Shown in pieces: positions 6,356 to 35,659 of a DNA stretch of 39,381 nt. The first letter of the stretch is position 1; each line of letters opens with the position of its first letter. Location: NCBI GenBank assembly GCA_003552795.1, contig PUOM01000107.1, positions 1 through 39,381 on the forward strand. The letters run 5' to 3'. Source of the DNA: Halomonas sp. GTDB lineage: Bacteria > Pseudomonadota > Gammaproteobacteria > Pseudomonadales > Halomonadaceae. Below the pieces are notes generated by a model. That model saw nothing but the letters and a program-made list of their open reading frames with translations. It was not told the origin of the DNA and ran no database searches. Made by a program: the position numbers and the translations under genes.

Positions 6356-6384
6356 TTGACCTGCGCCCGAGAAGGGCGCAACAT
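6356..6384 (+). promoter_or_regulatory. Candidate promoter of the cold-shock gene, with a dyad
   Basis: TTGACC (6356-6361) and CAACAT (6379-6384) are 17 bp apart. The spacer holds a 7-bp inverted repeat, TGCGCCC (6362-6368) and GGGCGCA (6374-6380). This could be an operator, or the 3' hairpin of the upstream GMC transcript. If the promoter is right, the leader before the cold-shock ORF is roughly 135 nt, a length typical of cold-induced csp leaders. Confidence 0.35.
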
Positions 6385-6527
6385 ACGCGCAGTTGGTTAG
6401 CAAGTTGAACGTCGCAAGTGGTCATCGAAACGCTCTAGTGTCGATTTCCCGGTGAAAGGTTTCTTGTTCTACCCACTGCAACTCGGGTATTTCCCGGAAA
6501 ATCAAACGCTATTCGAGGAATTCGAAA

Positions 6528-6734
6528 ATGGCTACCGGTACTGTCAAGTGGTTCAACGATACTAAAGGCTTCGGCTTCATCTCTCCGGACGACAATGGCG
6601 ACGACCTGTTCGCGCACTTCTCCGAGATTCAGGCTGACGGCTTCAAGTCCCTGCAAGACGGTCAGAAGGTCTCCTTCGACGTCACCCAGGGCAAGAAAGG
6701 CCTCCAGGCTTCCAACATCAAGGTCATCGGCTAA
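6528..6734 (+). CDS. CspA-family cold-shock protein
   Basis: A 68-residue single cold-shock domain that binds single-stranded RNA and DNA and melts mRNA structure. It carries the start [13 protein letters not shown]1 KGFGFIS (residues 14-20) and an RNP2 segment DLFAHF, all with the aromatic residues needed for base stacking. It is a monocistronic gene: a long upstream leader precedes it and a hairpin terminator follows within 50 bp. The leader is more AT-rich than the flanks, which fits thermosensing leaders of csp mRNAs, but cold induction itself is inferred. The family commonly has several paralogues per genome, so no specific symbol is given. Confidence 0.95.
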
Positions 6735-6756
6735 TCGCCAGCTGACACTGATGTAG

Positions 6757-6801
6757 CTCCCTCGGGAGCACGAGAGGGCCCGCCATGCGCGGGCCCTTTC
6801 G
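6757..6801 (+). terminator. Rho-independent terminator of the cold-shock gene
   Basis: A first small hairpin, GCTCCC-TC-GGGAGC (6757-6770), is followed by GGGCCCGC (6777-6784), a 5-base loop, GCGGGCCC (6790-6797) and TTT. The second stem-loop is a strong GC-rich terminator with a short T-run. Confidence 0.75.
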
Positions 6802-6857
6802 CGTGTGCGCTATCTGCATGGACAGCGTCTGGCCTCCGGGGCATCCCCGGAGCCTTC

Positions 6858-6918
6858 TAGGCGCCGGCAGCAGGTTCGCCTCAACAGGCGCCGAGGTCGC
6901 CCCTGCGGGGTCAGACCC
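6858..6918 (+). repeat. Intergenic repeat, copy A (5' part altered)
   Basis: Shares GCAGGTTCGCCTCAACAGG, then CGCCGAGGTCGCCCCT and GGGGTCAGACCC, with the copies starting at 6927 and 7163. The left half (CCCAGATTTTTCTCGGCG in the other copies) is replaced by unrelated sequence. Confidence 0.7.
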
Positions 6919-6926
6919 TGAGGCCT

Positions 6927-7004
6927 CCCCAGATTTTTCTCGGCGTTGGCGGCAGGTTCGACTCAAAAGGCGCCGAGATCGCCCCTGAGGGGTCAGACCC
7001 CGGC
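6927..7004 (+). repeat. Intergenic repeat, copy B
   Basis: Starts CCCCAGATTTTTCTCGGCG, continues TTGGCGGCAGGTTCG and ends GGCGCCGAGATCGCCCCTGA followed by GGGGTCAGACCCC. CTCGGCG (6939-6945) pairs with CGCCGAG (6971-6977), so the core can fold as a stem with an inner loop. The GGGGTC-A-GACCCC tail is itself palindromic. Confidence 0.75.
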
Positions 7005-7074
7005 CAAGTCACGAAGCCCGTCATGGTGCGCCTTGCGAGCGGTTTCGACGCCGCCGGGGTCTGACCCCTCAGGG
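6983..7074. repeat. 22-bp perfect inverted repeat around a 48-bp spacer
   Basis: The arm at 6983-7004 (CCCTGAGGGGTCAGACCCC plus GGC) is the exact reverse complement of 7053-7074. Beyond the right arm, CCGCCAACGC (7077-7086) is the reverse complement of the repeat core GCGTTGGCGG, so the right arm belongs to an inverted, decayed copy of the same repeat family. Confidence 0.8.
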
Positions 7075-7161
7075 CCCGCCAACGCTGGCAAAGTCGCACC
7101 GAGATGCTGACAGGTAGTTGATTTTATTCGGTTATTCGTGGGGAGGTCTCAGGGTCAGTCC

Positions 7162-7236
7162 CTGGGGAATCCCCAGATTTTTCTCGGCGTTGGCGGCAGG
7201 TTTGCCTCAACAGGCGCCGAGGTCGCCCCTCAGGGC
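7162..7236 (+). repeat. Intergenic repeat, copy C
   Basis: Begins with the palindrome CTGGGGA-A-TCCCCAG, then ATTTTTCTCGGCGTTGGCGG, CAGGTTTGCCTCAACAGG and CGCCGAGGTCGCCCCTCAGG. It has the same order and orientation as copy B, with only a few base differences. Confidence 0.75.
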
Positions 7237-7347
7237 CTCTCCCCGTTATAAGAGTATTTGGAATAAAAAGAGACCCACAAAGAACTTTTTAGAATAATTT
7301 GCGGGCGGCACAATGGGAGGGTCTTCCTTCCCGATCGGATACCCGCC

Positions 7348-33928: not shown

Positions 33929-34025
33929 GCCCAGAATATGCGCTGAAGCGTCGATGATTTCGCACTAGCATGGAGGCATCATGACCCAATTGGCGGCACC
34001 AGGCCGCCCACAGAGGAGACGCTTC

Positions 34026-35030
34026 ATGGGCCTGCTGATCGACGGCAAGTGGCACGACCAGTGGTATGACACCGACAAGCACGGCGGCGAGTTCGTGCGT
34101 GAATCTGCCAAGCTGCGCGACTGGGTGACCCGGAGGGGTGACGCAGGGCCGGATGGCCAGCCGGGGCTGCCCGCGGAGGCGGGGCGCTACCACCTCTATG
34201 TGTCGCTGGCCTGCCCCTGGGCCCACCGCACCATGATCCTGCGCAAGCTCAAGGGCCTCGAGGACCTGGTCGGCCTTTCCCACGTCAGTCCGCTGATGCT
34301 GGACCAGGGCTGGACCTACGACGAATCCGAGGGGGCCAGCGGCGACCCGATCAATGGCGTCGACTACCATCGGGAGCTCTACACCCTGACCGATCCCCAC
34401 TACACCGGACGCGTGACGGTGCCGGCGCTATGGGACAAGCAGACGGGCCGCATCGTCAACAACGAGTCGGCCGAGCTGCTGCGCATGTTCAACGGCGCCT
34501 TCGATGAGCTGTCCGGCAATCGCCTCGATTTCTACCCCGAGGACCTGCGCGAGACCATCGATGCGGTCAACGCCGATGTCTACGACCATATCAACAACGG
34601 CGTCTACAAGTCGGGCTTCGCCACCGAGCAGGCGGTCTACGAGAAGCACGTGGTGGCGCTTTTCGAGTCTCTCGACCGCATGGAGGCGCGCCTGGCGCAG
34701 CACCGCTATCTGGCCGGCGAGTGGTTGACCGAAGCCGATATTCGTCTCTTCACGACCCTGGTTCGCTTCGATGCCGTCTACCACGGCCACTTCAAGTGCA
34801 ACCTGCGCCGCATCGAGGACTACCCGAACCTCTCGCACTACCTGCGGGAGCTCTACCAGTGGCCGGGCATTGCCGAGACTGTGGACTTCGACCACATCAA
34901 GCGCCACTACTACTACAGCCACGACACCATCAACCCGACCCGCATCGTGCCCCGCGGCCCGCTGCTGGATCTGGAGCGTCCCCACGACCGCGAGCGCCTG
35001 ACGGGCAAGGGCATTCGCGAGAAGGTATAA
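34026..35030 (+). CDS. yqjG: Glutathionyl-hydroquinone reductase (YqjG/ECM4 type)
   Basis: A 334-residue Xi-class glutathione transferase that removes glutathione from glutathionyl-hydroquinones. The catalytic cysteine is C63 in SLACPWAHR, the same position as in Escherichia coli YqjG, and the C-terminal helical GST domain is complete. The start MGLLIDGKWHDQWYDT equals the normal family N-terminus, and GAGGAGA lies eight bases upstream, so the ATG 45 bp earlier is not used. It follows the LysR gene on the same strand. Its stop codon is followed immediately by four heptamer repeats. Confidence 0.94.
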   Translation: MGLLIDGKWHDQWYDTDKHGGEFVRESAKLRDWVTRRGDAGPDGQPGLPAEAGRYHLYVSLACPWAHRTMILRKLKGLEDLVGLSHVSPLMLDQGWTYDESEGASGDPINGVDYHRELYTLTDPHYTGRVTVPALWDKQTGRIVNNESAELLRMFNGAFDELSGNRLDFYPEDLRETIDAVNADVYDHINNGVYKSGFATEQAVYEKHVVALFESLDRMEARLAQHRYLAGEWLTEADIRLFTTLVRFDAVYHGHFKCNLRRIEDYPNLSHYLRELYQWPGIAETVDFDHIKRHYYYSHDTINPTRIVPRGPLLDLERPHDRERLTGKGIREKV

Positions 35031-35061
35031 AAGCTGGAAGCTGTAAGCTTTAAGCTGTAAG
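35031..35061 (+). repeat. Tandem heptamer array (AAGCTnn)4
   Basis: Directly after the yqjG stop codon come AAGCTGG, AAGCTGT, AAGCTTT, AAGCTGT and AAG with no interruption. This is a 7-bp tandem array next to a copy of the intergenic repeat. Confidence 0.85.
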
Positions 35062-35063
35062 TA

Positions 35064-35139
35064 ACCCCTCAGGGGCAATCTCGGCGCCTTTTTAGGCGAA
35101 CCTGCCGCCAGCGCCGAGAAAAATCTGGGGATTCCCCAG
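35064..35139 (-). repeat. Intergenic repeat, copy D
   Basis: The reverse complement reads CTGGGGAATCCCCAG, ATTTTTCTCGGCGCTGGCGG, CAGGTTCGCCTAAAAAGG, CGCCGAGATTGCCCCTGAGG. It matches copies B and C nearly base for base but lies 28 kb away. CTCGGCGC (35080-35087) and GCGCCGAG (35111-35118) form an 8-bp stem. Confidence 0.85.
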
Positions 35140-35209
35140 AAGTCGCCCCCAAGTCCTGTGGCGCGAGAAGGGGTGCAAAGCAGCTGTGCCTCGCCACCTC
35201 GTTTGGGGC

Positions 35210-35659
35210 TCAGGCGTTTTTAGCCAGCCAGCGGTCCAGGGCGTTGGCGAACTCGCGGCGGTCTCCGTCGGAGTAGCCCTTGGGCCCGCCGGTGTGCTCG
35301 CCGCTGGCGCGCATGGTCTCCATAAAGTCCCTCATCTGCACCCGCGCGCGGATATTGTTCTCGTTCAGGGCCTCGCCGCGGGTGGTCATCACCTTCGCAT
35401 CACGTTCGATGGCCGCCATGGCCAGCGGCAGGTCAGAGGTGATCAGCAGGTCACCCGGCTGGATGCGTTCGACGATCTCGTCGTCGGCGGCATCGAAACC
35501 CTGGCTGACCGCCAGCGACTTGACCCACCGTGAGCGGGGCAGCGGCACCGTATGGTTGGCCACGAACCAGGCGGATGTCGAAGTGCGTTCGGCGGCACGC
35601 ACGATGATCTCACGCGCCACCTTGGGGCAGGCGTCGGCGTCGACCCACAGCGTCGGCAT
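35210..35659 (-). CDS. yaiI: YaiI/YqxD family (DUF188) protein
   Basis: A 149-residue conserved protein. The N-terminus LWVDADACPKVAREIIVRAA is the family signature, with the Asp residues of a PIN/NYN-like nuclease fold. The later segments DLLITSDLPLAM and a Gly-Gly-Pro motif near the C-terminus are also typical. RNase activity is suspected from the fold but the function is not established. GGGAGA precedes the ATG at 35659. It appears to be monocistronic, and lies beside repeat copy D. Confidence 0.92.
   Translation of the reverse strand: MPTLWVDADACPKVAREIIVRAAERTSTSAWFVANHTVPLPRSRWVKSLAVSQGFDAADDEIVERIQPGDLLITSDLPLAMAAIERDAKVMTTRGEALNENNIRARVQMRDFMETMRASGEHTGGPKGYSDGDRREFANALDRWLAKNA

Follow-up and report, generated by a model that had tools for sequence, protein, structure and literature searches.

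A family of nested palindromic repeats in Halomonas, probably mobilised by a Y1/HUH transposase of the GGGGWSAS-end type

We found that a nest of repeats in a Halomonas genome belongs to a family which, in all likelihood, consists of non-autonomous mobile elements of the single-strand type served by a Y1/HUH transposase of the RAYT class (the GGGGWSAS-end or 'TIRYT' type). The window, that is, the whole stretch of 39,381 nucleotides analysed here, is contig C293 of the draft genome G000 (2.87 Mb, 336 contigs, 86.7% complete). G000 is the Halomonas genome to which the window belongs; G, C and L followed by a number denote genomes, contigs and loci. An earlier note had seen in the nest a mobile non-coding element comparable to REP/BIME or MITE sequences and perhaps moved by a RAYT-type transposase. 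That proposal is supported, because copies occur at many sites, the orthologous sites are empty, one module (A) is present or absent inside a larger element (D-B), and the same ends are found at Y1/HUH genes of relatives. Judged from these comparisons, the family is real and very probably mobile, and it is best read as REPIN-like elements with ends of the GGGGWSAS ('TIRYT') kind rather than as canonical GTAG REPs. The observation was real, yet the repeat then described is part of something larger, and the part linked to the transposase is the palindrome, not the core emphasised in the earlier note.

The repeat described earlier is here called module B, with the copy at 6908-6991 as reference. 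Its three direct copies were confirmed at 6826-6909 (74% to the reference), 6908-6991 and 7152-7235 (89%), and so was the copy on the other strand, at 35066-35139. Module B occurs at 14 places in G000 at E <= 2.4e-11, the four of the window among them, which is far beyond chance. The sequence at 7053-7090 that had been taken for an inverted decayed copy is there, but it is the right end of module A (6989-7068) followed by the start of module D (7069-7150). The palindromes noticed at the ends are likewise present, but they are not a mere ornament of the ends: GGGGTCAGACCCC is the joint between modules. The features are listed in Table 1. Compared with relatives, the whole nest (~6820-7240) is extra DNA. 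The lone B copy sits between convergent genes at 33981-35030 (+) and 35210-35659 (-), as called by a rough GC3 gene caller, and short direct repeats, AAGCTGGAAGCTGTAAGCTTTAAGCTGTAAG, adjoin it at 35031-35063.

Table 1. Repeat features of the window, with the basis of each assignment.
Feature	Position	Strand	Basis
Module B, first and most decayed copy	6823..6906	+	82% to 7139-7245 query, E 1e-15; 74% to reference copy
Outer palindrome, REP-like, GGGGTCAGACCCT; left end of the 256-bp composite	6907..6919	+	outer arms 6908-6931/7139-7162, 24 nt, 88% complementary
Module B, second copy; left arm of the composite	6919..6988	+	alignment and genome search
Module A, 80-bp REPIN-like doublet, GGGGTCAGACCCCGGC ... 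GCCGGGGTCTGACCCC	6989..7068		relatives in the genus; fold; absent from three D-B copies
Module D; right arm of the composite, partial pairing with B	7069..7150		13 distinct copies in the loci retrieved
Outer palindrome, decayed, AGGGTCAGTCCC; right end of the composite	7151..7162		outer-arm complementarity
Complete composite, 256-bp nested inverted repeat: palindrome-B-A-D-palindrome	6907..7162		fold; same order in other copies
Module B, third copy	7162..7235	+	alignment; fold z -3.4 (+ strand), -3.9 (- strand)
Module B alone	35064..35139	-	91%, E 3e-23; fold z -4.7

The hallmark palindrome GGGGTCAGACCCC has 43 exact copies in G000 (24 forward, 19 reverse), and the reversed control has 0. With one mismatch and either centre base allowed, there are 75 forward matches versus 3 for the control in the same genome. 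Most palindromes are paired as inverted doublets, whose step is 66-68 bp in module A and 25 bp in module C, a 38-bp hairpin. Module A, 80 bp long, is bounded by two inverted GGGGTCAGACCCC palindromes and lies between B and D. The inner arms around it (6983-7004/7053-7074; 22 nt) are 100% complementary, and the middle arms, D with B, are 82% complementary over 17 nt. Folded as single-stranded DNA, the composite reaches -74.9 kcal/mol versus -45.7 +/- 3.6 for shuffles (z -8.03), and 0 of 200 shuffles were as low. Module A folds with -27.3 kcal/mol (z -4.87) and module B with z -3.4 to -4.7; module D alone shows no folding (z +1.4). The loci retrieved from the genus contain 55 distinct relatives of module A, 79-82 bp long, whose 16-nt ends are near-invariant and whose middle is less conserved. 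All 55 have two inverted REP-like units at fixed spacing in one hairpin, which is the definition of a REPIN. They start with GGGG or a one-base variant, and no GTAG of the canonical REP type was found at the foot. Short module C hairpins (L057 2040-2077, L061 2486-2523, L066 1947-1984 and L067 2517-2529) overlap genes predicted with a crude caller; a number of these hairpins lie near a gene end, and they may alter C-termini.

In the loci retrieved, D and B are joined through A in four contigs of G000 (C293, C240, C179 and C330) and joined directly in G000 C283, G000 C184 and G045 C431, the A-less copies being 82-83 bp shorter than the A-bearing ones. The joint at C283 reads GGCGGACCCCGCAGGGGCGACC and that at C240 GGCGGACCCTGC-[A]-GCAGGGGCGACC, and C240 has the D variants of C283. 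Module A thus appears in these alignments as a discrete unit, and the clean A-less joints fit its excision or insertion as a doublet; A may have been cleanly excised there, or may not yet have arrived. It is quite possible that only A is mobilised by a transposase and that D-B is another, older repeat on which A landed once and which then spread by other means. The three D-B copies without A agree with this, as do the lone B at 35064 and the occurrence of A without B or D in many species: the composite query has matches in at least 22 of 90 genomes of the genus (G000 included) at E 1e-6, most of them over module A only. These counts are lower bounds, since scoring was limited to 8 candidates in almost all genomes. 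On the other hand, the palindrome recurs, inverted, at the two outer ends of the composite, and the D-A-B order and orientation are the same in G000 (C240, C179), G019 and G096 even though the module sequences of their composites differ by ~15-27%. Among the matches listed, only those in G000, G019 and G096 cover most of the composite, and G045 and G033 have B or D pieces. Carriage of the composite by plasmids or phages was ruled against, because neither collection gave a match to the 256-bp sequence at E 1e-5.

Both window sites are empty in relatives, as the earlier note had suggested should be looked for; 29 loci per site were compared, drawn from 89 other genomes. Site 1 is flanked by a csp gene and by a gene that looks transporter-like, a class judged by eye. 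In 28 of its 29 loci both flanks could be aligned, and the interval measures 141-270 bp versus 599-614 in the window. The closest relatives retain the terminator-like hairpin of csp and the upstream region of the next gene, without the nest. At site 2, both flanks of 19 of the 29 loci were aligned, and four intervals are only -2, 3, 11 and 17 bp. This interval is variable, other repeats fill it in many species, and it looks like a repeat hotspot. No match to B or D was found in any of the 58 orthologous loci of the two sites, and a one-mismatch match to the degenerate palindrome in one of them (L259, GGGGTCTGTCACC) was taken as chance. Orthologues of window 35030-35210 (L225, L232, L235, L247, L253 and others) bear other palindromic repeats such as GTGGGAGCTGGGCTTTGCCCGGCGAA and GTAGGAGCCGGATTTATCCGG, the latter of which resembles canonical GTAG REPs.

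An alternative without any transposase is that the repeats are maintained and spread as RNA or transcription signals, such as terminators or 3' stabilisers of mRNA, and are copied by recombination or gene conversion. The RNA fold of the nest is strong (z -7.3), and the nest lies between the csp terminator-like hairpin and the conserved upstream region of the next gene. Gene placement also agrees with such signals: among 31 clusters, as seen with the crude caller, 23 are intergenic (4 with a neighbour missing) and 8 overlap a called gene, and the 19 intergenic clusters with both neighbours called comprise 14 same-direction, 5 convergent and 0 divergent pairs; one of the 8 gene-overlapping clusters has divergent neighbours. 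This explanation is nevertheless improbable, for the csp hairpin is retained at the empty sites without the nest, and the ends are near-invariant, match the flanks of transposase genes and vary with the transposase. The earlier note had itself raised two objections, that the copies might be confined to those it saw and that they might reflect a conserved RNA gene. Neither was borne out: further copies lie elsewhere, Rfam at gathering thresholds gave only the cspA thermoregulator upstream, and ARAGORN gave no tRNA or tmRNA. The cspA match (6359-6802) falls on the csp gene and scores 78.4 against a gathering score of 78.

The same ends were found beside Y1 genes of relatives. A scan with five proteins returned 575 relatives, of which the best 80, from related genomes, were used; 76 of these loci have at least 200 bp on each side and 4 were too short on one side. 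The motif GGGGWSAS occurs within 300 bp at 71 of the 76 loci, and on both sides at 50; because the five query proteins had been preselected for such ends, 71/76 gives no rate for Y1 genes at large. These loci contain 187 GGGGWSAS sites versus 10 for the motif read backwards. In an earlier set of 30 Y1 loci from relatives (L068-L097), mostly of other Y1 types, 6 have a palindrome match with at most two mismatches. Alternatively, the elements could be MITEs that have nested inverted ends and belong to a classical (DDE) insertion sequence. This would account for the size of 80-256 bp, the inverted ends, the multiple copies and the lack of any visible coding capacity, but it is very improbable given that the same ends flank Y1/HUH genes.

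The ends come in two alleles, GGGGTCAG and GGGGACAG, at 22 and 49 of the 80 loci (9 unclear). The allele tracks the descent of the transposase. A tree of 78 proteins (L162 and L176 left out for frame problems; 9 of the 78 rows without an allele label) needs 5 allele changes versus a shuffled mean of 18.2, and 0 of 500 shuffles were as low, a comparison that measures clustering, which near-copies produce too. One protein position goes with the allele. In 81 proteins, from which unlabelled, frame-shifted and short rows were dropped and for which 14 labels came from the genome-level comparison, position 199 is R, H or K in 27 of 29 TCAG proteins and F, Y or L in 51 of 52 ACAG proteins. The exceptions are L182 (F) and L189 (W) on the TCAG side and L125 (R) on the ACAG side, and the own end of L125, GGGGACAGTCCCC, is again a perfect palindrome. 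Expressed as whether loop bases 5 and 9 pair, the rule holds for 26 paired/basic and 51 unpaired/non-basic cases with 4 exceptions, two each way. In the sampled Proteobacteria and Thermodesulfobacteriota, most ACAG-type genes have the asymmetric end GGGGACAGACCACG.

The HUH and Y---NP motifs of the transposase (H60, H62, Y121, N125, P126) are invariant in 52 sequences. Pfam Y1_Tnp is matched with 43.8 bits (cut-off 23), and NCBIfam NF047646 REP_Tyr_transpos with 72.1 bits (E 4e-20), under the curated cut-off of 80 bits; by sequence, the protein is a relative of the RAYT family NF047646 below its cut-off. An AlphaFold model (mean pLDDT 93.2) has as its best PDB match 4er8, E. coli TnpA-REP with its REP hairpin (Z 16.4, 158 residues aligned, 2.4 A), and the runner-up reaches Z 9.2. 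Thg1 and ribosomal S6 likewise appear among the VIA-align matches, at Z 5-7.4, which we read as a shared fold arrangement. A sequence search of solved structures gave nothing at E 0.01 with the five proteins as query; with the 52 proteins it gave 4er8 at 6.5e-4, behind two other transposase entries. As regards the C-terminal HTH-like extension of subclass 2.1, Pfam found no HTH in two proteins, and the model has C-terminal helices at 185-197 and 204-214.

Copy number goes with the presence of the gene. Among 89 genomes (G000 excluded), those with the gene (21) all have exact palindromes of one or the other allele, with a median count of 18, while the 68 without it have a median of 0 and 45 have zero (Mann-Whitney p 2e-11, kinship ignored). 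Ten or more palindromes occur in 13 of 21 gene-bearing and 5 of 68 gene-less genomes. When the copies inside transposase loci were removed, the 21 genomes still had a median of 15, none had zero, and 13 still had ten or more. The gene match is partial in 3 of the 21 (G040, G116, G112). Counting against the link, five genomes that are 99-100% complete (G004, G026, G097, G106, G115) have 10-28 copies and no gene match at E 1e-20, and G000 has its 43 copies. The majority palindrome allele is that of the transposase in 15 of 17 genomes, also with locus copies removed; G082 disagrees, and G113 ties and then disagrees once these copies are removed. The comparison covers 17 of the 21 genomes because G095, G105 and G114 carry both alleles and G118 none. 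G095 (L211) has an A element with GGGGACAGACCCC ends, as does G114, judged by position, and in each of these two genomes both allele labels occur among the transposase loci. Exact TCAG copies number 253 in G027 and 102 in G095. Several palindromes ~20 bp apart surround the transposase genes of these two genomes (L119, L120, L288, L289).

In G000 itself, no cognate transposase gene was found in the 86.7%-complete assembly, so the assignment of the family rests on relatives; the search for a Y1/RAYT gene with the same ends, which the earlier note had proposed, succeeded there and failed here. The only two Y1 genes of G000 lie in opposite orientation on contig C6 (L046, 5035-5922). They were rejected as cognate, because C6 has a GC content of 52% versus 62-71% in nine other stretches measured and no palindrome within two mismatches; C6 is a probable contaminant. 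The elements of G000 could be relics, or the 13% missing from the assembly could contain the gene.

The Halomonas elements resemble the BIMEs of enterobacteria, on which PMC8266576 gives background: both are intergenic mosaics built from repeated modules and inverted palindromes. We know of no counterpart of modules B and D. GGGGWSAS ends with Y1 genes have been described as TIRtrons/TIRYT in passages of Di Nocera 2013 (PMC3733652), and TIRYT were mostly placed in subclass 2.1 in those of Quentin 2018 (PMC6006769), where HUH and Y---NP motifs are the signature of class 2; the GGGGWSAS TIRYT are probably this subclass 2.1. The Halomonas ends GGGGTCAG and GGGGACAG fit GGGGWSAS and flank Y1/HUH genes as TIRtrons do. 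Unlike in TIRtrons, the end in Halomonas is perfectly palindromic and nested, and a single genome can hold as many as 253 exact matches to it. TIR repeats occur as dimers and clusters in some species according to sections of PMC3733652, and the ORF 1152 TIR family of S. maltophilia, likened here by its description there only, also has self-complementary TIR repeats close together and a Y1 gene. The Halomonas family differs from the account in PMC6006769, in which no REP-like sequences were found near subclass 2.1 genes. HTH domains are reported there for the TIRYT examples; Pfam gave no such match in our two proteins.

A further comparison is with the Pseudomonas REPINs as treated in parts of Bertels and Rainey 2011 (PMC3116915). 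Both have two inverted short repeats at fixed spacing (71 bp in REPIN GI, 67/68 in Halomonas), one long hairpin, and clusters beside the transposase gene, and excision of REPINs is reported in that account. Unlike REPINs, the Halomonas elements are without the GTAG-type tag, carry a 13-nt mini-palindrome, and have an outer second pair that makes the nested 256-bp composite. A literature search did not find the palindrome GGGGTCAGACCCC among the matches listed; likewise among the matches listed, GGGGACAGACCAC or its complement gave a single match, in a mouse study. Literature on Halomonas with 'repetitive extragenic palindromic' contained, in its excerpts, nothing on such elements, nothing was found for Halomonas with MITE or 'miniature inverted-repeat', and the word Halomonas is absent from the main text of PMC3733652 and PMC6006769. 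The nested composite and the palindromic, amplified end allele appear to be new.

With transposition as the preferred reading, the following mechanism is plausible. The recognised unit would be the 13-nt mini-hairpin GGGG-TCAGA-CCCC. Two inverted mini-hairpins make up the 80-bp REPIN-like hairpin A, which seems to be the most clearly mobile unit, and in the larger nested form A is enclosed by a D-B element that has the palindrome again at its outer ends; we infer that D-A-B may move as one unit. By analogy, the Y1/HUH transposase would bind folded copies in single-stranded DNA, the Y1 tyrosine would cut beside the hairpin, and the copies would be rejoined elsewhere, mostly between genes. Catalysis and the single-stranded intermediate are drawn from the known binding, cutting and rejoining chemistry of TnpA-REP and its IS608 relatives, as set out in excerpts of PMC8266576.

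More speculatively, and this is rather unlikely to hold as a whole, Halomonas may present the birth of a REP system. The asymmetric end GGGGACAGACCACG would have become the perfect mini-palindrome GGGGTCAGACCCC; the transposase would have changed too, with position 199 basic instead of F/Y/L and position 4 mostly non-R; and the ends would have been amplified into free doublets, which then nested in another repeat to give four-palindrome composites. In this scenario, residue 199 may sense whether loop bases 5 and 9 are able to pair. The weak point of this proposal is the allele difference in cognate copy number, 1-253 in TCAG versus 5-26 in ACAG genomes, which is weak (p 0.03 only).

The origin of dispersed REP repeats from the ends of transposase genes is an open question. 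According to PMC3733652, following TIRtrons over time may help to clarify it, although its authors saw no obvious link of such genes to families of repeats. Within one genus, the present data include gene-bearing and gene-less genomes, two end alleles that have switched, exact TCAG palindrome copies from 0 to 253, and an element whose copies either contain the inner doublet or lack it. Because such variation exists within a single genus, the question of REP origin is testable there by comparison and by in vitro swaps of single residues and single bases.
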